A stretch of 38,312 nt of DNA from a bacterium (lineage in GTDB: Bacteria; Sysuimicrobiota; Sysuimicrobiia; Sysuimicrobiales; Segetimicrobiaceae): contig DATGJN010000037.1 of NCBI GenBank assembly GCA_035295165.1, positions 1 to 38,312 on the forward strand. The letters are read 5' to 3'. The position numbers and the translations under genes were made by a program. The notes beneath the pieces are model-generated. The model searched no databases. It worked only from the letters and a program-made list of their open reading frames with translations, and was not told the DNA's origin. Positions 2,154 through 38,312 of this stretch are shown here, in pieces (the first letter of the stretch is position 1; each line of letters starts with the position of its first letter).

Positions 2154-2221
2154 TATCGAACACCTGACGGGCTGGGGAATTTTCAACCGGCACTACGCGG
2201 AGATTTCAACCGGTGTTGACA

Positions 2222-2571
2222 TTATACCGTCCCTACCTGTCCGCGCAGGACCGAACCCTACTCGCGACAAGACACGCTCAGGCCTCCCCGGGTCATGCTG
2301 CTCTCTGTCCCACCATGCTGCCCGTACCCACGACTGATCCCCCCTGGTCTTCTCTGGATGCCCCTTCCTCCAGTACTAGCAGAGTCGGGCCTCCAGGGGT
2401 TCGCGTCGACCGGTTCGCCTGGCTTCGACAGCCTCGGCTGCGGCCTGGTGGTTTGCCTCAGGTCCTTCAGATTCCGCCTCGCGACGGACACCTACCCTTT
2501 TCGGCTACGGTCCGCATCCAGCTGGACCGGCGGGTCTTTCACCTGCGAGAGAACAGCACTGCCGGGCACAC
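2222..2571 (-). mobile_element. Group II intron 5' fragment (domain I region), cut by IS21
   Basis: Read on the minus strand from 2571, the sequence starts GTGTGCCCGGCAGTG, a bacterial group II intron 5' end of the GUGYG type. Landmarks I recognise from intron domain I follow: GGTGAAAG, CCGTAGCC, GGTGTCC, GCGAGGCGGAATCTGAAG, then GAGGCAAACCACC. ACCCGGGGAGGCCTG near 2285-2300 matches the stretch that normally lies just before the reverse transcriptase/maturase gene. The intron is then interrupted at 2221 by the IS21 right end, so the maturase and domains V-VI are missing or lie beyond the window. Open frames in this stretch are intron RNA, not protein. Upstream of the intron tip lies a CTAGTACTAG palindrome. 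Confidence 0.72.
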
Positions 2572-2761
2572 TAGTACTAGTAGCGCTTCCGCAATTGATC
2601 AAGGTGAGGTGAGACAACGGCCCAACGGGTACGTCGGCTTCAAGGACCAGGTCTACAGCCCACTCTATGGCGGCCGGGAGGTGACTATGGCCGCAAGCGC
2701 TGGAAAACCGCACTCTGACCCTCAGGCACCAATGGAAACTGGGGGTTGATCGGCGCAGCAC

Positions 2762-2975
2762 TTACAGATATGGGTCGAGATCCAACCCTGCGCAATGGAA
2801 GTAGATGGCCGTCTTGAAGTGCTCGACGTTCCTGAAGCCCCAGGCGGTCTTCTTGACCCACTGAATCGTGGCGTTCACTGTTTCGAGACCAGCATTAGTG
2901 ATCCGGTGCCGCAAGTAGGTCAAGACGTTCGGGAAGTGCCGTCGGAGCCGCGGTTCCCGATCGTTCCCCCATAGC
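2762..2975 (-). pseudogene. ISL3-family transposase, C-terminal remnant
   Basis: A reverse-strand frame ending in TAA at 2762-2764 reads about 60 residues with the ISL3 C-terminal signature: HFPNVLTYLRHRITNAG, then a VN-T-IQWVKKTAWGFRN stretch, then HFKTAIYFHCAGLDLDPYL. This is the conserved end of the DDE domain in IS204/IS1001/IS1096-type transposases. About 350 upstream residues are missing: an in-frame TAG appears near 3008, and sequence beyond about 2975 no longer resembles the family. The 2572-2761 stretch downstream is probably the IS right flank, but I could not define an inverted repeat. Confidence 0.75.
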
Positions 2976-3455
2976 TGCCACCTCCCCGGTCTGGATGGGT
3001 GCTCAGTCTACAGGCAGTGCCACAGAATCGCAATGCGTACGCGCTATGCTAGCATGGAGCCATGCGGAGGCAGCGGAGGACACGGTGGAGCCTGGCGCGG
3101 GTGGCGCGTCTCGATTGGATCGCAACGCGCAGCGCGTATGGTATGGAAGACGGGCCCTAATATGCTAGTCTACGATGGATCAAGAGTAGCATTTGTGCTG
3201 GATGCGTCCGGGCCGTTTGCTGGTCGTGTTTCTGAGATCTGTGTCTTCGTACCGGGACAGTACAAGACGATCTTCCAGCAGATGCGCCAGTCGGCCGGGG
3301 AGTAAACTCGCCGGGCACCAACGGCAGAAGCGTTCGCTCGTTCGCAAGTCTGTCACTGACGCTGGCAATGTGACCGGCGGTGGTGCTCACTCCGATTACC
3401 TCCGAACCGTCGCTGGCCACGGCATCGGGGCGGCGCCGCGTTTTTTGACGTGTCC
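2976..3455. other. Stretch with no confident gene
   Basis: A plus-strand frame of 90 codons (3033-3305) is open, but it has no recognisable domain and no clear ribosome binding site. A TATGCTAG string occurs near 3046 and again near 3161, without further repeat structure. The segment lies between the ISL3 remnant and the end of the sensor phosphatase gene. I see no terminator hairpin with a T-run for that gene. Confidence 0.4.
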
Positions 3456-6400
3456 TTATTCTCCCAGCCGCCGCACGGTGCGTGGTTCCACATCTACGAC
3501 GTGTCGACGATCGGCAACGGCACTCCAAAGGCGCACCGTCGTCCCCGCGAGTGTCGTTTCGACTTCGACAGTGTCTACCAACGCCTTCATCACACCAAGC
3601 CCGTAACCGCTCCCATCCGCGGGCCGACCCGGTCGCCACCTCCCGTCGTCTGCCACGTCGATGCGAAGCATCGATCCGTCTCGTCGCGCGGCAATGTGCA
3701 CCAGGCCCGTTGTGGTGCCGTAGGCGTGCTCGATCACGTTGTTGACGGCTTCTCCAACCGCAACTGTGATCGCGGCTGCGCGGTCGTGATCGAATCCGGC
3801 GTCTGCCATCAACCGCCGGAGCGCCTGACGGATCAGCACGGCGCTGCGAGGAGCGGCCTCGAGTGCCATCTCAAACCGGTCCAGCGGCGTGGCGCGCACA
3901 GCCACCGTAATGACGGCGACATCGTCCCGTAGGGGGACGCCCGAGAGCAAGCGTCTCACGATGGCCTCGGCGTGATTCTCCGACGGTTCGGCCAACTCTT
4001 GCCCAGCCGCAGCGACCAACGCCGCTTCGCCAGCGATCGGGTCGCGGTCGTTCTCGGTGAGCCCGTCGGTGTAAAGAACCAGCAGACTCCCCGGAGGAAG
4101 CTGGAGCGTTTGAAACGGCGGCAACTCCATTCCCAAGTATCCCAAGGGCCCCCCCCCGCACGCAGGGAGCTTGGCCGATAGATCACGGCCGACAAGGATC
4201 GGGGCCGGGTGTCCCGCCGTCGCATAGGCAAGCGTGGATGTCGCCGGATCTATCACCGCAAATAACGCGGTGGCCATTGCCTCGTCGCCCTCGGTCATGG
4301 TGAGCACTTCGGCCACCCGCTGAAGCACCGTCGCGGGGTTCGCGTGCTCCAGCGCGGCGGTGCGGATTGACTGGCGCAACTGCCCCATGATAACGGCAGC
4401 CCGCAGACCCCGTCCCGTTACATCCCCGATCGAGAGGCCGATGTGCCCGTTAGGTAGCTGGAACGCATCGTACCAGTCGCCCCCGATGTCGGCCTCGCGC
4501 GCCCCTCCGGACCGGTGCGTGGCGTGCACGGCAATGCCTGGAAACTGTGGCAGCGCGGCCGGCAGCAGCGCCCGTTGAAGTGTATCCGCGACCCGATGTT
4601 CGCGGGCAAATAGCCGGGCCCGCTCGATTGCCTGCGCGCACTGCCGCCCGAGCGTGAGCATGAACTCAAGATCGTCGGATCCAAACCGCCGGGGCTCGCG
4701 AAAGTTCAGATAGAGCGCGCCGACCGCACGTCTCTGCGAGATCAAGGGAATCACCGCCCGGCCACCGCCACGCAACGCAACCGGTTGTGTCTCGTGATCG
4801 GCGTAGCGGGTCGCTAAATCGTCCTCGGTCCCGTCCCAAACAACCAGTCCGGTCCGCATCGCCGCGGCGATACCAGGAACCCGATCGAGCGGGAAACGGC
4901 GCCAGCGTTGCACGATCTCGGAAGGGTACCCGACCGCGCGGACCAGTTCCAACGTGGATTCGTCCGGCTCAAGCAGCGATAAGCTGGCGGCATCCCCACC
5001 GAGCGCTTGGAGCGCGTTGACCACGATCACGTCGGCGACCTGCTCCAGCGTAGTCGCTTCGGACAGGGCGGCGGTGATCGCCTGCAATCGCTCGATGCGA
5101 TCTGCTGCCCGCTCAGCGGCCTCGCGGGCCACCCGCTCAGCCCGCCGCGCCTCTTCAGCCTCGGCTTTGGCTTGCTCCTCCGCAGCGTACCGCAAGGCGA
5201 GTTCGATGGATCCGCTCAGAATCGACGCGACGTGTCTCATCAGATCCATGTCAACAGTCGCGAACGCATGCGGTTCTGTCGAATTGATTTCCAGGATCCC
5301 GAAGGGCAACCCGGCCCCCAGGAGCGGCACGGCGAGGTAGGACCGCAAGGGCGTTGTCGGTGTAAGGCCCTCAGCGAGGAGATCGGCGCTCAGAAATGGT
5401 TCCCCACGATCAACAACTTGCCACACCCGACTGGGGCCGCGGGGTACGCGCTGCCCCAACGCCTGTGCTGAAAATGACCCCGCCGCTGCCCGCAGAACCA
5501 GATCATCGCCCTCACGTAGGATGATCGAGCCGCCGGTTAGACGCACGACGGGACGGAGGTGGTCGAGCACGGCGATCAGCATCTGTTGCAGCTCGGTCTG
5601 CCCACTAATGGCGGCGGCGACTGCGTGAAGCAACCGGTCGTGCTCCTGCAGTCGTCGCCGCCTAGCCTCCGCTTGCTTGCGCTCGGTAATGTCCCGGTTC
5701 GTCTCCAGCACGAACCGTCGCCCATCACGTTCGGTCAAGATGGCGCGGCTGTCGACGATAACTTTGCGGCCATGCCTCGTCACTTGGTGAAGTTCACCTT
5801 CCCAGCGGCCGGTTTTGCTGAGAGCTTGGATGTACGCGGATGTACCGTCGGGGTACTCCGTCCGCAGCAGCTCATGAGATACTCGACCAACGGCCTCTTC
5901 GGGTGCGAACCCGTAGAGGTCCTCCGCACCCCGGTTCCAGTACAGGATGGTACCTTCGACCTCCCAGGTGAAGATTGCGTCGTACGTGATGTTCAGCAGG
6001 TCGGCCTGCGCATGCAATTGCTTCTCGATCTGCTTGGTGTGGGAGATGTCCCGGGCGATCGTGGAGGCGCCGATAATGCGTCCCAACGCATCCTTGACCG
6101 GGGAAATGGTGAGCGAGACGTCAACCCGGGATCCGTTCTTCTTCACGCGGACGGTCTCGTACCCCTCAATGCGTTCCCCGCGTTTAAGCCGCGCCATAAG
6201 CGCCGGAATCTCGTTGGGCTGCTCTGGCGGAACGAGCACCGATACGGGTCGACCGAGTATCTCGTGAGGTGCATAACCGTAGAGTCGCTCCGCTCCCGTA
6301 TTCCATGAGAGAATGATGGCGTCGAGCGTCTTGCTAAAGATCGCATCGTCCGACGATTCCACGATCGCGGCGAGATGGAGAAAGGTACGTTCGTTCTGGC

Positions 6401-6794
6401 GACGCCTTGCATCAGCATCGCGCTTGTACCCCAAACTGAGGGCCGCGAAGAGCGCACCGAGGACGAACACAGCGTGCGTCAACACTGACATGTCCGTCAA
6501 TGCCAATGAACGTGGCGGTGGCACGATAAGGAACGAAACCAACAGGATGGACAGCGACGCTGTGACTAAGCCCACGAGATGGCCTCCCACGTACGCCAGC
6601 ACTGAGATGAGCGAAAGATAAATGAGGAGCAACCCTGACCGTGGGACGTGGAAGAAGTTGCCCACCAGGGTCAAACCGATTGTGGCGAAAATCGAAATCA
6701 AAGCGCAGTTCAGGCGAAGTGTTCGGGTGTCACGGCGACACCGGTCCAGTGTCGTGCGCGTCGTGTCATGTGGGAGAGACGCGGAATGACGCAT
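3456..6794 (-). CDS. Membrane PAS-PAS-GAF-GAF-SpoIIE phosphatase fused to RsbW-like kinase
   Basis: This is a 1112-residue signalling protein. Residues about 28-125 form four hydrophobic segments like the KdpD-type DUF4118 membrane module. Two PAS domains follow (about 140-255 and 262-375; both show WN-GAE-LYG motifs), then GAF (about 395-545), a charged Glu/Ala/Arg coiled coil (about 548-585), GAF (about 590-735), a PP2C/SpoIIE phosphatase (about 755-960; IGGDWYDAF, IGDVTGRGL, LRDDVAVITVAV) and an HATPase_c kinase domain (about 970-1095; N box EAVNNVIEHAY, VADDGRW, GYGLGVMKALVD). In partner switching the phosphatase reactivates a STAS antagonist and the kinase inactivates it; here both activities sit in one chain. 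The substrate is probably the STAS protein encoded 35 bases upstream in the same operon. No sigma factor is present in the window. The frame is open throughout. Confidence 0.92.
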   Translation of the reverse strand: MRHSASLPHDTTRTTLDRCRRDTRTLRLNCALISIFATIGLTLVGNFFHVPRSGLLLIYLSLISVLAYVGGHLVGLVTASLSILLVSFLIVPPPRSLALTDMSVLTHAVFVLGALFAALSLGYKRDADARRRQNERTFLHLAAIVESSDDAIFSKTLDAIILSWNTGAERLYGYAPHEILGRPVSVLVPPEQPNEIPALMARLKRGERIEGYETVRVKKNGSRVDVSLTISPVKDALGRIIGASTIARDISHTKQIEKQLHAQADLLNITYDAIFTWEVEGTILYWNRGAEDLYGFAPEEAVGRVSHELLRTEYPDGTSAYIQALSKTGRWEGELHQVTRHGRKVIVDSRAILTERDGRRFVLETNRDITERKQAEARRRRLQEHDRLLHAVAAAISGQTELQQMLIAVLDHLRPVVRLTGGSIILREGDDLVLRAAAGSFSAQALGQRVPRGPSRVWQVVDRGEPFLSADLLAEGLTPTTPLRSYLAVPLLGAGLPFGILEINSTEPHAFATVDMDLMRHVASILSGSIELALRYAAEEQAKAEAEEARRAERVAREAAERAADRIERLQAITAALSEATTLEQVADVIVVNALQALGGDAASLSLLEPDESTLELVRAVGYPSEIVQRWRRFPLDRVPGIAAAMRTGLVVWDGTEDDLATRYADHETQPVALRGGGRAVIPLISQRRAVGALYLNFREPRRFGSDDLEFMLTLGRQCAQAIERARLFAREHRVADTLQRALLPAALPQFPGIAVHATHRSGGAREADIGGDWYDAFQLPNGHIGLSIGDVTGRGLRAAVIMGQLRQSIRTAALEHANPATVLQRVAEVLTMTEGDEAMATALFAVIDPATSTLAYATAGHPAPILVGRDLSAKLPACGGGPLGYLGMELPPFQTLQLPPGSLLVLYTDGLTENDRDPIAGEAALVAAAGQELAEPSENHAEAIVRRLLSGVPLRDDVAVITVAVRATPLDRFEMALEAAPRSAVLIRQALRRLMADAGFDHDRAAAITVAVGEAVNNVIEHAYGTTTGLVHIAARRDGSMLRIDVADDGRWRPGRPADGSGYGLGVMKALVDTVEVETTLAGTTVRLWSAVADRRHVVDVEPRTVRRLGE

Positions 6795-6829
6795 CGGATT
6801 CGCTCCCGGTAGACCAGAATAGAGCCAGG

Positions 6830-7246
6830 CTAGCCGACTTCCGAGTGCCCACCCGCGGGTTTTTCGAGGTGCGCGTGTCCGATAGGACCGTCGATGCGTT
6901 GCAGGAATGTCTCAACGTCGGGGAAGACGGTAAGATGCAGATCGAGCGCGGCGATCTCCATGACGAGGCGCGCGATGTGGGAGGGGTTCGCGACGGCCAA
7001 ATACACCCCCCGCATGGATGCTTTTCTCAGGTATCGAAAAAAGAGCCCGATCCCGCCACTATCGATGTAGGTCACATCTTTGAGCACCAAACAGATCGGC
7101 TTTCCCAAATCGAGCGCGACTTCGAGCGTTTGTCCAAGGATGTCGCGAGCACTGATATCCAGTTCCCCCGAGACGTGGATAGTCGTCGCGCCCCGGATCT
7201 CTTCACTGCGACACTCGAGCCCTTTTCGACGGTGTGCACGGTCCAT
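6830..7246 (-). CDS. STAS-domain anti-sigma factor antagonist (RsbV/SpoIIAA type)
   Basis: This is a 138-aa cytoplasmic STAS protein. Motifs are TTIHVSGELDISA (about residues 21-33) and the phosphoacceptor loop TYIDSGGIGLF, where S63 follows D62 as in RsbV and SpoIIAA. In that family the unphosphorylated form binds the kinase/anti-sigma partner and the phosphorylated form is released. I chose the ATG at 7246 because GGGGGTG lies just upstream and the STAS fold begins about 20 residues later; an in-frame upstream start at 7273 would add nine residues. The gene is the first of a two-gene operon with the sensor phosphatase/kinase and has a strong promoter directly upstream. Confidence 0.9.
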   Translation of the reverse strand: MDRAHRRKGLECRSEEIRGATTIHVSGELDISARDILGQTLEVALDLGKPICLVLKDVTYIDSGGIGLFFRYLRKASMRGVYLAVANPSHIARLVMEIAALDLHLTVFPDVETFLQRIDGPIGHAHLEKPAGGHSEVG

Positions 7247-7278
7247 CGCCACACCCCCGTGAGCGGTTTTCAACAGCT

Positions 7279-7306
7279 AGTATATAAAGCGCGTTTTGTT
7301 TGTCAA
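7279..7306 (-). promoter_or_regulatory. Sigma-70-type promoter of the STAS operon
   Basis: On the minus strand, a perfect -35 box TTGACA (7306-7301) is followed by 16 bases and a -10 box TATACT (7284-7279). The start codon of the STAS gene lies about 33 bases beyond the -10 box, or six if the upstream start is used. The local sequence is AT-rich against a GC-rich background. This is the cleanest promoter in the window. Confidence 0.78.
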
Positions 7307-8960: not shown

Positions 8961-9876
8961 TCATTCGTGACACACGGACTGCAACTTCTCGCGGAGCCGT
9001 TCGTAGGGCGTTTGTCCCTGAAGGGATCCGTGAGGAGGTTCGCAGTTATGGAAGCGCTCCCACTCTTCGAGCCGGGCATTGAACTCTGCGACCGATGAGA
9101 TCACGACGCCCTGGAGCTGGCGATAGAACTCCTCATCGTCGATTCGATGGGAATGCTTGTCTTCCCGTTCGAGTATGGGCGTCGCGGTCGGATGTATCGA
9201 TGCTGAATCCCCTTGTCGAGAATGTGCCAGTGGAACTGGGGCCCAAACTCAGGCCCGTTGTCCGTCTGAAGGCACTCGACACGAAAGGGAAGCTCACTGA
9301 GGACATAATCGATAAAGGCGATTGCACTCTGCTGGGTGTTCGCATTGAAGATCTTCAACACGCGCAGCCGCGTGCAGCCATCAATGACCGTGTACTGGTA
9401 GTACCATCGGGCACGTCCCGCCACGGGGGCGAGGAATTTCACGTCGACCTGTGACTGGTGGCTAGGCAATGGTTTCTCGTACCGCTGGAACCGTGTCTCG
9501 CGGTTCCGATAGCGCATGTTTGAGGCCAAGCGGCTGACCCCGGCACGCCGCAGAATGCGCCAGATACCCGCGGGGCTACGGTTGAACGCGTGGTAGCGCT
9601 TCAGGTACATCGAGATCCGACGCGGACCAAAATGAATGGTAGTAGCGTCGCAGATAGAGAATCTTCTCGACGACATCGGCTGGCGTCGCTCTGGGGAGTG
9701 ATGGGGCCGGGGGGACCCGTTCCGAAGACCGCTCTCGCCGGCGCTCTGGTAGGGGCGATGATAGGTCTGTCGGCTGATCCGAAGTATCGGCAGATTTTGG
9801 CGACATTGCCTGTGACCTCTTCCACCTGCCGAAACTATCCAAGCCGGTGCCCGATGGCCCGTTCATCCGGACGCAT
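8961..9876 (-). pseudogene. IS481-family transposase, frameshifted
   Basis: The start MRPDERAIGHRL at 9876 hits an in-frame TAG after 13 codons; the same frame resumes with FRQVEEVTGNVAKICRYFG, an IS481/IS3-like helix-turn-helix. After a shift near 9790 come fragments resembling RQTYHR, then ILYLRRYY, then HFGPRRISMYLKRYHAF. The rve core (SQVDVKFLAP, ECLQTDNGPEFG) is intact up to about 9150. There the frame moves again, and the remaining frame reads DDEEFYRQLQG, FNARLEEWERFHN and PPHGSLQGQTPYERLREKL to a TGA at 8961. D and D of the catalytic triad are visible; the E region is damaged. It cannot be translated in one piece. Confidence 0.8.
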
Positions 9877-12004: not shown

Positions 12005-13353
12005 AAAGGGTGTGGAAATTGCTTCAAGCGGCGACCCCTCGTTTTAATGTCTTGGTCACCTCAACACCGTTCGTGAACTGAACACCATCGAGCACCTTGG
12101 CGACCAGGTGGGGCGCATCGATGCGCCGCCACCGACGTTCTGCCCGGCGCACGAATTGGAAGTCCAGATAGAGTCCCGTTTGCGCTTTCCGCATCTGCCG
12201 CGTCGTCCGGGTCCGCAGGCGCACTGGATCGAAGACCCACTCGATCGGATTGGACGTGCGCAAATTCTTCCAGTGCTCCCGCGGGAAGTCGTAGTAGGTG
12301 AGCAGCTCGTGTTGATGCTCGACGAGGGACGCCACCGCTCGCGGGTAGTCCCACTCGAACTGCCGCGCGAAACGTTGATTCCGTTCAGTCGCCTCGGTCC
12401 GCGTCGACGCCGCGTAGATGTCCCGGAGGAGCGGCTTCGCCTCCGGCTGGAGCCGTTGCGGCAGATTGTCCAGCACGTTCAGCATCTTGCGGCACCAGCA
12501 GAGCTGGTGCCGCGCCTCAGAATAGACCTCCCGCACCGCGCCCCACAAGCCCAGCCCGCCGTCGCCATTGAAGTCTCGTACTATTTTCAGCCCGCGGCGG
12601 CGCGGCTCTCGCAAGACATCGCGCCAGCTCTCGCGAGACTCTCGGTAGTCTTCGACCATCGCCAGCAGCTCTTTCTGGCCGTCTTCGGTGACGCCGATGA
12701 CGATGAGGATGGCGGTCTTCTCATCGGCGGGCCCGGCCTTCAAATAGAGCCCATCCGCCCAGCAGTACGCGCAGCGCGCCTCAAGGGGACGCCACGCCCA
12801 GGCTTCGTACTCCGCCTGCCAGTGCGCCTTGAGGCGCACGATCGAAGTGGGACTGAGCGGAGCGGCCTCGCCCAGCAGCGCCCGGAGGGCGGGCTCGAAG
12901 TCCTCGGTCGCCAGGCCCTGGAGGTACAGCTCGGGCACCAAGGCGTGGATGACGTCGCTGGTCCGCTGGTAGCGGGGCAGCACCTGGGAGTGGAAGGGCT
13001 CCTCGGTATCACACACACGCGCGGGGCCCGGACCTCGAGCGTGCCGCAGCCCACCGCGATCTTGCGCGGCTTTCCCGCGCCATTGCCATAACCGCGTCGG
13101 CGCCCGGCCCCGTGCTCATAGCGCGCCCGCCCGAGATACTCCTCCACTTCCTGTTCCAACGCGTTGATCAGCATGCGCTGCGCACCCTCACGCGCCAGGA
13201 CGTCCAGGGTCGACTGAATTTCCTCCTTGTCCACCCCCCGCTGCGGCTGGTATCCTGACACCGGCGTACTCCTTTCCCCTCCCCGGCCAGGGAGGTTTCC
13301 GATGTGGTGGATGCTCTCGGAAAGGGTACGCCACTTGAATTTCCACACCCTTT
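12005..13353 (-). mobile_element. IS256-family insertion sequence
   Basis: The ends are inverted repeats: AAAGGGTGTGGAAATT at 12005-12020 on the plus strand, and its reverse complement at 13338-13353, with further partial matching (TTCAAG) inward. The element contains a single transposase gene on the minus strand, which is frameshifted. I find no matching 8-9 bp target duplication in the flanks. Confidence 0.82.
12024..13261 (-). pseudogene. IS256 transposase with one 2-bp frameshift
   Basis: This is a mutator-type DDE transposase. The first part starts at GTG 13261 with AAAGGAG upstream and reads through INALEQEVEEYLGRARYEHG and the GTLEVRAPRV block. At about 13010-13020 a GTGTGTGTG run shifts the frame; removing one GT would restore APRVCDTEEPFHS. 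The second part is open to TGA 12024 and includes YCWADGLYLKAG, VIGVTEDGQKELL, FNGDGGLGLWGAV, HQLCWCRKMLNVL and RTSNPIEWVF. Joined length would be about 412 aa, normal for IS256. It is either slipped-strand decay or a read error in the dinucleotide run. Confidence 0.85.
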
Positions 13354-23873: not shown

Positions 23874-25653
23874 TGTAGTGAAGAAAACCCCTCTTTGCAA
23901 CAGTTCGCGCGCTTTGTATGATCAGGGCAGCGATGTACGTACGGCGCTGCTCTCGGACGCTGAACGGGAAGCGCTACGGGTATTGGGCGCTGGTGGAATC
24001 CTATCGCACCGCGCGGGGGCCGCGACAGCGTGTCGTCGCCCATCTCGGGGATGTCGACGAACACGGCCGCATGGCACTGCCGGTCGAGGGACCGCCCGCG
24101 CAGCAACAGTCGCTGTACGACACCACCATGCCCGAGTGGGTCGACGTGGATCTCACCCGCGTGCGCGTGGAACGGACCCGCGACTTCGGCGGTCCGTGGC
24201 TCGGCTACACACTGCTCCAACGGTTGGAACTGCCCCGCTTCCTCGCCGAGACGCCGCCGACCGACGGCGCCGACATCCCGTGGCCGGCGATGGCGATGGT
24301 GCTCGTGCTGGGCCGCTTGTGCGCGCCCAGCAGCGAACTGCATTTGGCCGAGCACGTCTACGAGGGCAGCGCGCTCGCGGATGTGTTGGGCGTGCCGGCG
24401 GCCAAGGTCAATGAAGATCGGCTCTATCGCGCGCTCGACCGCCTGCGCCCGCACAAAGCCGCGCTGGAGCAGCATCTGGAAGCACGGCTCGGTGAATTGT
24501 TCCAGGTCCAGTACGACCTGCTGCTCTACGATGTGACCTCGACCTACTTCGAAGGGGACGCCGCGCAGAACCCGCAAGCGCAGCGGGGCTATTCGCGCGA
24601 CCACCGGCCCGACTGCAAGCAAGTCAATTTGGCCCTCGTGGTCACGCGGGACGGTCTGCCGCTGGGCTATGAGCTGTTCGCCGGCAACAAGGCCGACGTG
24701 ACGACATTGCGCGAGATCGTCACCACCATGGAGGCGCGGTACGGCCACGCCGACCGGATCTGGGTGCTGGATCGCGGCCTGGTAAGCGAGGAGCACATTC
24801 GCTGGCTCAAAGCGCACGGCCGGCGGTACATCGTGGGCACGCCGAAGACGCTGCTGCGCCGGTTCGAGCGAGAAGTAGCGAGCGCCGCTTGGAACCAGGT
24901 CCAGGATGGCGTCGAGGCCCAGATCTGTGCCGGGCCCGACGGCGATGAAGTCTTCGTCCTGTGTCGGAGCATGGCGCGGTAGGCGAAGGAACGGGCCATG
25001 CATGACCGGTTCGAACACCGCATCACCGAGGGGTTGGAGAAACTCGCGGCGGCGTGCCAGAAACGCCCCCACTCGTCCGTGGCGATCGCGCAACGCGTTG
25101 GGCGTCTGCTGGGCCAAAACTCCCGTGCGGCCAAACTGTTTGCGGTCGAGGTCGGCACGGATCCGCGTAGCGCCGCAACCGTGCAGTGGACGACATCATG
25201 GGCGTGGCGCGACTGGTCCCGGCTCAGCGAAGGGTGCTACGTGCTGCGCAGTAATCTCGTCACCTGGACCGCAGAAGATCGGTGGACCGCGTAATCCACC
25301 TCACCGACGCGGAAACGGCGTTCCGGATTCAAAAATCCGACCTGCAGCTCCGGCCGATCTGGCATCAAAAGGAAGCTCGCGTGCAGGCGCACATCCTCGT
25401 GTGCTTCCTCGCCTACGTGCTGTGGAAGACCCTGGGACGCTGGTGTCATGCCGTCGGGCTGGGCAATGAGCCGCGGAAGGTGTTCACCGAGGTCCAAGCG
25501 ATTCGTCTCGTCGGCGTGGTGCTCCCAACCCGCACCGCCCTCGCGCTCCGCAAACGCTGCGTGAGCCGCCCGACCGAACACCAAGCCGTCCTGCTCCAAC
25601 AGCTCGGACTCAGCCCCCCACGCACCTCGAGGCGGTCCCAGTGTAGTGAAGAA
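23874..25653. repeat. 12-bp direct repeat around the IS1634 gene
   Basis: TGTAGTGAAGAA occurs at 23874-23885 and 25642-25653 in the same orientation. IS1634 ends should be inverted, so this is not the expected terminal repeat. The right copy lies inside the 3' end of the transposase gene. Confidence 0.5.
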
Positions 25654-25671: not shown

Positions 25672-25713
25672 AAAATAAGGGTTTTTGCCCTCCCACTGCG
25701 GAACTTGGGCTAG

Positions 25714-27248
25714 GTGTGTGTCCGAGAAATGACATTCGGACAGGACTTTAGTATGCGAAAGTGGAATTTCTTCCCATGCCGGACAAAGAATATCGCCCGT
25801 ACCATCCGAATCAACTCCTCCTGCTGCCGCCGTCGCTGCACGACTGGCTCCCGGACGACCACCTGGCCTATTTCGTGAGCGATCTGGTGGACAGCTTCGA
25901 CCTGAGCGCCATCGAGTCGGCCTACGAGGACGAGGCGCGCGGGGCCCCACCATACCACCCGGCGATGATGGTGAAGCTCCTGGTGTATGGCTACTGCACG
26001 GGCGTGTACAGCTCGCGGCGCATCGCCCGGCACGTGGAGGAAGATGTCGCCTTCCGGGTCCTGGCCGCCGGCAACGCGCCCGACTTTCGGACGATCAGCG
26101 ATTTCCGCCTCCGCCACCTCAACACGGTGACCGGCTTGTTTGAGCAAACGCTGCAGCTCGCCCGCAAGGCGGGGCTGGTGAAACTGGGTCACGTGGCCCT
26201 GGACAGCACGAAGCTGAGGGCGAACGCGAGCAAGCATAAGGCGATGAGCTATGGCCGGATGAAAACGGAAGAAGCCCGGCTGGCGGCGGAAGTGGCGGCG
26301 ATGCTGAAACAGGCCGTCGCCACCGACGCGGAGGAGGATCGGCGGTACGGCCGCGACGTCCGCGGGGACGAACTGCCGGCCGAGCTGCGCCGCCGGGAAG
26401 ATCGCCTGCGGAAGATCCGCGAGGCCAAAGCCGCGTTGGAAGCGGAGGCCAAAGCGCGCGCCGAGGCCGAGCGGGCCCAGCGCCGCGAGGATCCGCCAGC
26501 GCCCACCGGTCGTCCTCCCAAGCCGCCCCGAGAAACCCCGCCGGACCAAGCGCAGTACAATTTTACGGATCCGCAGTCGTGTATCGTGCGGAATGCCGAT
26601 GGCGCGTTCATCCAAGGCTACAATGCCCAGGCCGCCGTGGACGCGACGCACCAGCTCATTGTCGCCACCGATGTGACGGCGCAGCCCGCAGACGCTTGTC
26701 ACCTGGGGCCGATGGTGACGGCCATCAAGCAGACGACCGGGCATCGGCCACGCCGCCTGACGGCCGACGCGGGCTACTTCAGTGAAGCGAATGTCACCGC
26801 CAAGTCCGTCCGGGGCATCGACCTCTACGTCGCCGTCCGGAAAGACAAGCACACGCAGGTCCCGGAGCCTGCCCCGCGCGGGCGGATTCCCCAGCACTGC
26901 TCGAGCAAGGAGCGCATGCAACGCAAGCTGCGCACCATAGCCGGACGGAAGGTGTACAGTCGTCGCAAGGCGATCGTGGAGCCGGTGCTCGGCCACATCA
27001 AAGCGGCCCGCGGGTTTGACCGGTTCCGATTGCGCGGGGTGTGGAAAGTGAAAGGCGAATGGACGTTGGTGACGCTCGCGCACAACATCTGTCGATTGTT
27101 TCAAGCACGACCGCAGCTGCAGGGACTGATGAGAACGGCAATAGCATAAAGGGAGGCAGGAAATGCCCGGCACCATCTCTGTTCCGGCAGCACCAGCTGT
27201 CTCGCCGCCCTCTCTAAGCCTGTTCCATGTCATTTCTCGGACACACAC
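25714..27248 (+). mobile_element. Intact IS1182-family element with CTAG duplication
   Basis: The left end GTGTGTGTCCGAGAAATGACA (25714-25734) and the right end (27228-27248) are perfect inverted repeats of 21 bases. Both are bordered by CTAG (25710-25713 and 27249-27252), the expected 4-bp target duplication. The transposase is open. This is the only element in the window that looks recent and undamaged apart from the IS21. Confidence 0.92.
25776..27149 (+). CDS. IS1182-family transposase
   Basis: This 457-aa DDE transposase has an N-terminal DUF772 region (PNQLLLLPPSLHDWLPDDHL, AMMVKLLVYGYCTGVYSSRR). The core follows: VALDSTKLRANASKHKAMSY (first Asp), a long charged helix rich in Glu, Arg and Ala, DPQSCIVR, GYNAQAAVDATHQLI, RRLTADAGYFSEANV (second Asp) and AIVEPVLGHIKAARGF (Glu). 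Length and order are normal. The ATG 25776 start gives the usual MPDKEYRPYHPNQ opening; GTG 25761 upstream is less likely. No lesion is seen. Confidence 0.94.
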   Translation: MPDKEYRPYHPNQLLLLPPSLHDWLPDDHLAYFVSDLVDSFDLSAIESAYEDEARGAPPYHPAMMVKLLVYGYCTGVYSSRRIARHVEEDVAFRVLAAGNAPDFRTISDFRLRHLNTVTGLFEQTLQLARKAGLVKLGHVALDSTKLRANASKHKAMSYGRMKTEEARLAAEVAAMLKQAVATDAEEDRRYGRDVRGDELPAELRRREDRLRKIREAKAALEAEAKARAEAERAQRREDPPAPTGRPPKPPRETPPDQAQYNFTDPQSCIVRNADGAFIQGYNAQAAVDATHQLIVATDVTAQPADACHLGPMVTAIKQTTGHRPRRLTADAGYFSEANVTAKSVRGIDLYVAVRKDKHTQVPEPAPRGRIPQHCSSKERMQRKLRTIAGRKVYSRRKAIVEPVLGHIKAARGFDRFRLRGVWKVKGEWTLVTLAHNICRLFQARPQLQGLMRTAIA

Positions 27249-27520
27249 CTAGCGGTCGCGGACGTCGACGAGAGATTCCGTTGCGTCCTCGCGGTTAAAC
27301 ATAGCTATTCTTTTGGCACGGCGGTCAAGCTATCAGCGGTGCGCGGTAGAGACCCCGACCGCCTGGGCGCCTGTGTAATGTTCGTCCAAATACTGGACGC
27401 GCGCGTTGCGCTGTACGGATCTGCGCGCAGAAACGCGGGCGCGTTCGATCCCACACATTTGCGAGTGGAACCGGGCGCACCTCCGCGACCTGGTACGCTG
27501 CCAGTCTGGACGCGTTCTAA

Positions 27521-34215: not shown

Positions 34216-34689
34216 TTAGTCATTGCGGAATTTGTTCTCCCTCGCTGGCGACCTCCCATGGGCTCGAAACTGCATCGTTGGTTTGGGACGACTGGCGTAT
34301 GCGCTTCGGGAGGGGAGGCGTGGGGGTGACAGGTGGTCGGGAGTGACGATATCAAGCTTGTCGTATATCGAAAACGCCGTCTGAAGGTTCAAGGCTTCTA
34401 GGACACTTCGCGCAGCCCGATCAACACCGGCGAGAGCGATGCGCGGCAAACGATGCCGATAGTCCAGTAGTGGGCGAAACCCGAATGCGTCAATGGAAGT
34501 TAGATGTGAGCACTCCAGCACAATAGGCAAGCCATACGTCATCGCATACGCTAGCGCCTCTGCGAATACATGGGCTGTTTCCCCGTCAAGTTCCCCTACA
34601 ACGGTGACGAGGGTTACGTCGTCGAGTGGACCGACATCGCAGAGAAAAACCGAGGGCCCCAATCTATCGTGAGGCGAAGATGTATGCAC
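34216..34689 (-). CDS. STAS-domain protein lacking the phosphoacceptor serine
   Basis: This 157-aa protein starts at GTG 34689. The STAS core runs from about residue 24 to 120: VTLVTVVGELDGETAHVFAE, GLPIVLECSHLTSIDAFGF, RIALAGVDRAARSVLEALN. At the loop where RsbV and SpoIIAA carry D-S, this protein has D67-A68-F69-G70, so the regulatory serine is missing. It may act as a constitutive binder or regulate something else. A 35-residue basic tail follows the domain. It is not adjacent to a kinase; the phosphatase/kinase is about 27 kb away. There is no clear promoter. Confidence 0.75.
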   Translation of the reverse strand: MHTSSPHDRLGPSVFLCDVGPLDDVTLVTVVGELDGETAHVFAEALAYAMTYGLPIVLECSHLTSIDAFGFRPLLDYRHRLPRIALAGVDRAARSVLEALNLQTAFSIYDKLDIVTPDHLSPPRLPSRSAYASRPKPTMQFRAHGRSPARENKFRND

Positions 34690-37094: not shown

Positions 37095-38091
37095 CTAGTG
37101 CCGGTTCAATTTGATTGATCGGAATAGGTACAGCGGGCAGGTGGTGCTGCCCGTCCGGTGGTTGCGCCACGTGAGGTACCGGCTGATGCGACGACGGCGG
37201 ACCAGATGCGTGGGATCATCCGACCCGGCCACGGTGAACCGGCGCATCGTGCCGAGGTGCGACTCGATAAGATTCAACCAGCTCGCATACGTCGGCTGGG
37301 GGACGACGGTGATCCGCTGCGTAGCAGGCGCGCAGCCGCCGGAAGGCGGCCAAGACATCCCGCGCCGTCTTCCGGCGCCGGCACGTGCCCATCCGACAAT
37401 CGCCGTGCACGTCATAGACGCCCAGGAATTGCTCGGTCCCCTGCGTGCGGCGGTACGTGGCCCGCTGGCGGCGGGGGTGGCCCACCCGCGCCAGCCCGAC
37501 CCGGGGGATCGGGTGCAGTTCCAGCGGCCCCACTCGTCGAAACAGATCCCCGCTCCGCCCCGCGGCCGCCGCTCGTAGAGACGGAGGATGCGCGTTTTTT
37601 GCTTCGAACGCCGGATCGGGCCACGCTTTCCAGGTCTTGAGCCGCTGGGGCGTCACCCCTTCCCGCCGCAACACCCGCCGGACCCACTCATCCGTGATCG
37701 GCGGCAAGAGGCCCCGGTGCTTGCAGTACGCGGTGAGCTTGCCCGTGGACCACTCGGTAAACGGCAGCCCCAGATCGGCCGGGCGACTGAGGGCGACTTT
37801 GACGAGCTCCCGGATCTGCGGGCCGAGGAGAATCGGCTCCCGGCCCCACGGGTTCGTCGGCCGCTCGAACGTCTCGAACCCGGAGGTGTTGAAGCGGTGA
37901 ATCCACTGGTACACGGTTTGCGCGTGGCAGCTCAGCCGATCGGCAATGACGGGGACGGTGCGCCCCCGCGCCGCTCCGGCGATGATCTGGTAGCGCTGGT
38001 ACAAGCGCATGGGCAGCGTGCGGGTCCGGAGCTTGGCCTGGAGCTGGCGCTGTTCGCTGGGGCGCATGCGACGAAGGGTGAGCGGGTGCAT
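37095..38091 (-). pseudogene. IS630 transposase with homopolymer frameshifts
   Basis: ATG 38091 has GGAGG six bases upstream. The helix-turn-helix part reads RLYQRYQIIAGAARGRTVPV, DRLSCHAQTVYQWIHRFN, TEWSTGKLTAYCKHRG and ITDEWVRRVLRREGVTPQR. Near 37600 one base is missing from an A-run, and the true continuation KTRILRLYERRP then ICFDEWG lies in another frame. A missing C near 37535 shifts it back to PLELHPIP. A last shift near 37400-37300 leads to TYASWLNLIESHLGTMRRF and RRISRYLTWRNHR. The final TAG lies in the element end. It needs at least three repairs. Confidence 0.85.
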
Positions 38092-38175
38092 GGGGGCCTC
38101 CGCTGCAGCGACGTATGGGGCGTCCGGTTGCCCCCCATCATCCCACCTGCGCCAAACCAAATTGGCGGAGCACTA
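37096..38175 (-). mobile_element. IS630-family element with TA borders
   Basis: The left end CTAGTGCCGGTTCAATTTG (37095 onward) and the right end, read inward on the minus strand from 38176 as CTAGTGCTCCGCCAATTTGG, are imperfect inverted repeats. Each is bordered by TA (37096-37097 and 38174-38175), as expected. The element contains one damaged transposase gene on the minus strand. Confidence 0.78.
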
Positions 38176-38197
38176 GTGTAGCGTCCTGAAAGTACGG

Positions 38198-38312
38198 TTA
38201 CATAACACGGAGCGGATCTCCCGTGTAGGTCCACGCGAACGGTTTGGCATCGACATTGTACTCGGCGATGGCACGCAAGATGGTCTTGATGAGCTCTTGC
38301 CTGGAGGGAAAG
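38198..38312 (-). pseudogene. IS630-family transposase C-terminus, cut by the window edge
   Basis: The minus frame ending in TAA at 38198-38200 reads QELIKTILRAIAEYNVD then AKPFAWTYTGDPLRVM, the classic end of an IS630 transposase. The remainder lies beyond the window. Its end sequence TAGTGTAGCGTCCTGA (38174-38189) abuts the other IS630 element at a shared TA. Whether the gene is intact cannot be told from here. Confidence 0.8.

Follow-up and report, generated by a model that had tools for sequence, protein, structure and literature searches.

A sensor-phosphatase-kinase of the Sysuimicrobiales that seems to have exchanged its tethered STAS substrate: a putative partner switch acting in trans

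The stretch of DNA analyzed here, referred to as the window, comprises the 38,312 nucleotides of an entire contig (C37) from the 4.79-Mb genome of a bacterium of the order Sysuimicrobiales. It carries within positions 3456-7306, on the minus strand, a gene encoding a STAS protein followed by a large gene encoding a membrane-bound sensor fused to phosphatase and kinase domains (C, G and L numbers below denote host contigs, other genomes and the stretches compared, respectively). The features of the locus, with lengths and positions in amino acids (aa), are the following.

7279..7306, minus strand: sigma-70-type promoter, TTGACA-16 nt-TATACT, 11/12 consensus match
6830..7246, minus strand: STAS protein of the anti-sigma-antagonist type, 138 aa from ATG 7246 (147 aa if from TTG 7273), Pfam STAS E 2e-11
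7058..7060, minus strand: codon of the presumed phosphorylated Ser in YID-S-GG (Ser63 from the ATG, Ser72 from the TTG), by alignment to the D-S of RsbV
3456..6794, minus strand: fused sensor-phosphatase-kinase, 1112 aa, from Pfam matches
6405..6701, minus strand: DUF4118 membrane region (residues 32-130), Pfam
6045..6377, minus strand: PAS 1 (residues 140-250), Pfam
5667..6008, minus strand: PAS 2 (about residues 263-376), Pfam and comparison of homologues
5202..5594, minus strand: GAF 1 (residues 401-531), Pfam; 75% identity to one protein of genome G005
4623..5057, minus strand: GAF 2 (residues 580-724), Pfam
3897..4451, minus strand: SpoIIE/PP2C phosphatase (residues 782-966; GGDWYD at 771-776 just upstream), Pfam E 3e-41
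3528..3860, minus strand: RsbW/SpoIIAB-like kinase domain, HATPase_c_2 (residues 979-1089), Pfam E 2e-21

A preliminary description of this DNA had placed a STAS protein with an intact D-S pair ahead of one large fused membrane protein, under a clean sigma-70-type promoter, and both parts of this arrangement were found again. No other site in the 38-kb window agrees with the consensus at 11 or more of the 12 positions, and no match of at least 11/12 occurred in 20 windows simulated with a first-order Markov model. Because its position implies a transcript start that favors ATG 7246, initiation of the STAS protein at TTG 7273 is unlikely, and since only 35 bp separate the STAS stop codon from the start of the large gene, the two genes likely form one operon. 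No RNA element in the window exceeded the gathering score. The D-S of the STAS protein aligns with that of RsbV and is kept in 48/49 aligned STAS sequences, the exception being L117, and the protein scores 53.1 bits against the NCBIfam anti-sigma antagonist model TIGR00377, the cut-off of which is 53.45.

According to Pfam, the domains of the 1112-aa protein follow the order DUF4118-PAS-PAS-GAF-GAF-SpoIIE(PP2C)-HATPase_c_2, so that the PAS and GAF types named in the preliminary description stand, with their number now set at two of each. The sensor half is a mosaic whose different parts are best matched by different proteins; its first GAF domain has counterparts in only four of the proteins searched (L193, at 75%, L222, L229 and L200). 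The enzymatic half was compared residue by residue in an alignment of 53 PP2C-kinase proteins with a core of more than 250 residues, the window protein included and the first protein of L061 and that of L117 omitted. The PP2C aspartates 773, 776, 791, 910, 957 and 958 and the N-box residues E1015 and N1019 of the kinase are present in all 53. The G1 Asp, G1 Gly and second G2 Gly (D1049, G1051 and G1065) occur in 52, that is in every protein except L062, which a contig end truncates. Of the 53 fused kinases, 51 retain the first G2 Gly and 49 the Trp of a D-x-G-x-W motif (W1053 in the window). RsbW (6m36) displays identical E, N and D-x-G residues in the alignment, and the roles of these catalytic residues are those known from work on SpoIIAB, RsbW and SpoIIE. 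The ATP-binding residues checked for loss in the alignment are thus present in the window HATPase domain, and the earlier proposal of opposing kinase and phosphatase activities in one sensor polypeptide beside a phosphorylatable STAS protein agrees with the sequence, the activities themselves being predicted. A pseudogene or decaying copy was considered and rejected: the open reading frames and the checked catalytic residues are intact, and the ratio of nonsynonymous to synonymous substitution rates (dN/dS) between the enzyme and its close paralogue on host contig C34 is about 0.15-0.25, a value to be read with a dS of 0.9-1.5, near saturation.

Phosphatase-kinase switches on a single chain are already established, namely Rv1364c, HsbR/HsbA and SypE/SypA. 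Rv1364c of Mycobacterium tuberculosis (PDB 3ke6) is the best solved match over the PP2C and kinase domains (E 9e-37) and, according to passages of a published account, has its sensor, PP2C and RsbW-like kinase parts arranged identically along one chain (PMC9138534); however, it ends in its own C-terminal STAS domain, which the window protein lacks in favor of a separate STAS gene upstream, and the sensor half of the window protein is much larger and includes a membrane region. HsbR/HsbA and CrsR/CrsA likewise unite PP2C and a kinase/anti-sigma domain in a single polypeptide and keep the STAS protein separate, as excerpted in PMC6482189, but have a receiver domain in place of DUF4118/PAS/GAF, and no receiver domain appears among the Pfam matches of the window enzyme. 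SypE of Vibrio fischeri resembles it as a dual kinase/phosphatase of a single-domain STAS protein, SypA, whose target is described as unknown in the part of PMC10120452 consulted, but has an N-terminal kinase, a central receiver and a C-terminal phosphatase.

In order to place the window system among its relatives, 43 loci were taken from the matches listed in a search of 61 genomes, comprising most of the stronger ones that extend into the kinase region. Together with three host loci (window, C34 and C99) they form a set of 46 proteins, which is not a random sample, and 9 further proteins from named genome contigs bring the PP2C-kinase proteins to 55; contig ends truncate some of the stretches, including L200 on the C-terminal side. 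Among the matches listed, 44 of the 46 proteins, window included, have a STAS that is either fused to them or encoded next to them on the same strand: in 18 it is fused C-terminally, in 21 it lies directly downstream and in 5 upstream (window, L200, L229, L231 and L232), the remaining two, host C99 and L222 (whose stretch stops at a contig edge), having no linked STAS. For the 9 named-contig proteins STAS is downstream in 4, fused in 1 and absent from the same strand in 4.

The window enzyme itself belongs to a STAS-fused lineage. In the core tree, from which Rv1364c is absent, it groups with support 100/99 with the proteins of C34, G001 and G002, the last two being genomes of the same genus, and all three of these proteins are STAS-fused; the C34 paralogue, which shares 68% (PP2C) and 72% (kinase) identity with it, ends in such a domain. 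The window protein ends 23 aa past the kinase domain, its C-terminal STAS is absent, and no STAS remnant was found after the stop codon in positions 2200-3470. The STAS protein encoded upstream has a different ancestry, grouping with a stand-alone STAS of host contig C115 (support 100/86, 50% identity), together with a further stand-alone STAS on C77, and apart from the fused ones. That it could be the displaced C-terminal domain was rejected by approximately unbiased (AU) tests, both when it was forced together with the three fused STAS domains (p 0.0013) and when it was forced into the wider fused group (p 0.0059), on 101 columns and with groups named after the tree had been seen. Since the enzyme nests among STAS-fused proteins without a STAS of its own while its neighbor comes from another lineage, it seems to have lost a tethered substrate and acquired a neighbor of foreign origin. 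This also bears on the earlier label of a self-contained module, which is made doubtful by the STAS-fused ancestry of the enzyme, its own missing STAS and the other lineage of the neighbor. Opposite SpoIIE P752 in the alignment, the window protein has Asp916 and the C34, G001 and G002 proteins have Arg, which is a hint only, as this position is variable within the family. SpoIIE residues were numbered by counting from D628 and D746, which lands on E675, I723 and P752 as they are named in PMC11418112.

Related fragments occur elsewhere in the host genome. Positions 3961-4460 of C99 (L132/L145) hold a disrupted piece of the C-terminal part of the window enzyme, with two TGA codons inside and 87% DNA identity, about 4.4 kb from an RsbW gene that has kept its motifs and lies next to a SigB/F/G-family sigma factor. 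Because this fragment is accompanied by part of the downstream flank of the window (80% identity), the loss of the STAS domain may predate the duplication that gave rise to it. Downstream of the module, window positions 3128-3337 are about 80% conserved on C99 and may be the relic of a small plus-strand gene. The STAS-fused paralogue of C34 has a further separate STAS gene just upstream (L131, 6522-6911), distant from the window STAS in the tree.

With regard to the output, the reported lack of a sigma factor nearby holds across the contig, as none of the 20 matches to sigma factor region 2 in the genome is located on C37. The host possesses two SigB/F/G-family sigma factors above the cut-off, on C75 and C99, each adjoining an RsbW-like gene, and because the 13 STAS matches found in the genome all lie on contigs other than these two, the STAS protein serving them must come from elsewhere. 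Among the homologous modules, 5 of the 7 with upstream or unlinked STAS (L200, L229, L232, L222 and host C99; not the window or L231) have a SigB/F/G-family sigma factor and an RsbW-like gene as neighbors, in contrast to 0/39 modules with fused or downstream STAS that adjoin such a sigma factor among the matches listed (Fisher 1.5e-5, kinship uncorrected). All seven sigma factors tested, those of host C99 and C75, L200, L222, L229, L232 and L060, passed the TIGR02980 cut-off. The output, left blank in the preliminary description, is thereby narrowed, though not settled.

The anti-sigma factors beside these sigma genes were compared in 25 stretches, namely all 23 with sigma factors above the cut-off in the host and 42 related genomes, plus L303 and L304 just below it. 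In 20 of them the sigma factor has an RsbW-like neighbor; there is none in stretches L286-L288, and in L293 and L294 the sigma genes lie at a contig edge. A weak match inside L232 (9505-10080), which is not RsbW by alignment, was excluded from the count. The N-box Asn, the G1 Asp and the first G2 Gly are all lost in 19 of these 20 proteins, many of which are close kin and so do not represent 20 independent events, and all kept in one; all 20 have the N-box Glu, 13 retain the second G2 Gly and 9 the G1 Gly. The RsbW-like neighbor in L060 (Eremiobacterota), outside the 20, is also without the N-box Asn. Because the sigma-adjacent anti-sigma factors have lost these motifs while the fused sensors keep the N-box Asn in 53/53, the most economical interpretation would make the anti-sigma factor a mere clamp and the sensor the source of the kinase. 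A comparable division is described in excerpts on the RsbW1/RsbW2/RsfB system of Mycobacterium smegmatis, in which SigF is held by RsbW1, a protein devoid of kinase activity, and RsbW2 serves as the kinase (PMC7693655), with the difference that this kinase stands alone, unfused to phosphatase and sensors.

On these grounds we hypothesize, with a rough probability of 0.48, that the window encodes a dual sensor which switches a STAS protein in trans and thereby frees a SigB/F-type sigma factor. The RsbW-like domain would phosphorylate, and the PP2C domain dephosphorylate, a STAS anti-anti-sigma protein, the likeliest being the product of the gene immediately upstream of the enzyme, and signals sensed by the DUF4118/PAS/GAF half would shift the balance between the two activities. 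Unphosphorylated STAS is then expected to bind an anti-sigma factor encoded elsewhere, which would release the sigma factor; catalysis, substrate and output are what we infer here, while the domains, the residues, the ancestry and the losses of STAS and of motifs are read from the sequence. The enzyme would have its origin in Rv1364c-type proteins, in which a C-terminal STAS is part of the chain, and the loss of that domain, with a STAS of a different stand-alone lineage alongside, would have turned a tethered switch into a trans-acting one. As most anti-sigma factors beside SigB/F-type sigma factors in the order are without kinase motifs, sensors of this kind would provide the kinase.

Several points weigh against this hypothesis. 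The only sigma-adjacent RsbW-like protein that keeps all three residues is the one of host C99, and all 19 motif-poor proteins still contain the N-box Glu, 12 of them also the second G2 Gly and 8 the G1 Gly; in any case, lost motifs would not prove lost activity, nor intact motifs activity. The stand-alone RsbW-like proteins of host C50 and C10 keep the N-box and are alternative candidate kinases, and those of C75 and C99 match RsbW models below the curated cut-offs. The window module does not adjoin a sigma factor, L222, L229, L231 and L232 form one clade in the core tree, so that the adjacency counts are not independent, and L200, cut by a contig end, may carry a fused STAS. Contrary to the adjacency pattern, L060, outside the set of 46, combines a downstream STAS with a SigB/F/G-family sigma factor next door. 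The short STAS alignment and the near-saturated dS also tell against it, and binding of the window kinase to the window STAS is predicted only. Faster change of the enzyme domains after the STAS loss was considered and rejected, a suggestive unpolarized excess of window-specific changes (p 0.003) falling to a nonsignificant p 0.31 when polarized with outgroups. A loss of kinase activity has reportedly been described in Rv1364c, to judge from the title of a paper.

Among the alternatives, the enzyme may still act in trans on its ancestral substrate, the STAS of the C34 paralogue, as a second sensor input, with the upstream STAS as a passenger. The identity between the window and C34 proteins, the D-S kept in the C34 STAS and the partial likeness of the switch-loop and flap segments speak for this, but the window STAS gene lies 35 bp upstream under a common promoter, and Asp916 differs from the Arg of the C34, G001 and G002 proteins, though at a variable site. 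P752 of SpoIIE is reported as a specificity site in the excerpted part of PMC11418112, where SpoIIE and RsbU are stated to discriminate between STAS substrates about 4000-fold and 400-fold, respectively, via three loops. We regard this alternative as unlikely, and find it improbable, too, that the STAS protein acts on an effector other than an anti-sigma factor, as in switches of the SypE/SypA or SiaABC type. Such systems exist, according to portions of two reports (PMC10120452; PMC9239204), and the contig is without a sigma factor; nevertheless, homologues in relatives adjoin sigma factors, and the host has two SigB/F/G-family sigma factors with 0/13 STAS matches on their contigs.

The fused kinase domain might, instead, itself be the anti-sigma factor of a closed module, binding a distant sigma factor. 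Excerpts of earlier work provide precedents, as CrsR and HsbR bind RpoS directly (PMC6482189) and in vitro binding of SigF has been reported for Rv1364c (PMC7693655), but both SigB/F/G-family genes of the host are already flanked by separate RsbW-like proteins, and we consider this very unlikely. Returning to the trans-acting sensor, it is conceivable, albeit as a tentative extension, that SigB/F-type signaling is split throughout this uncultured order, most anti-sigma factors being kinase-dead clamps and kinase and phosphatase residing in sensors that exchange STAS substrates, with the window as a natural intermediate of such a swap. If sensors do hold the kinase, the textbook double role of RsbW would fail for most of this order. 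By what route a kinase and a phosphatase arrive at a common STAS substrate is presented as an open question in the part of PMC11418112 drawn upon here, according to which their interfaces on STAS overlap only partly and may evolve independently. The swap in the window, if real, could be used to learn how the two specificities co-evolve, and a switch without a tethered substrate next to a close paralogue in the same genome, C34, that still has one would offer a matched pair for testing. In literature searches, mostly of papers outside subscription, no report was found in which kinase-dead anti-sigma factors occur together with fused sensors, nor one describing a STAS partner swap of this type.

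The surroundings of the module contain a second STAS gene (34216-34689, minus strand), whose product has D-A in place of D-S (SIDAFGF), without the usual phosphorylation site, and groups with a STAS of host C45 that is likewise D-A (support 100/98). Transposase-type genes are found at 91-2153, 9101-9676, 12024-13016, 23918-24982, 25761-27149 and 37216-38160, their families being an IS21 pair, rve, the Mutator family, DDE_Tnp_1 twice and HTH_23, and perfect inverted repeats of 27 bp (25709-25735 and 27227-27253) flank one of them. Finally, window positions 38172-38312 are identical to C99 14925-15065, a 141-bp stretch at the ends of both contigs that is probably a shared repeat at which the assembly broke.

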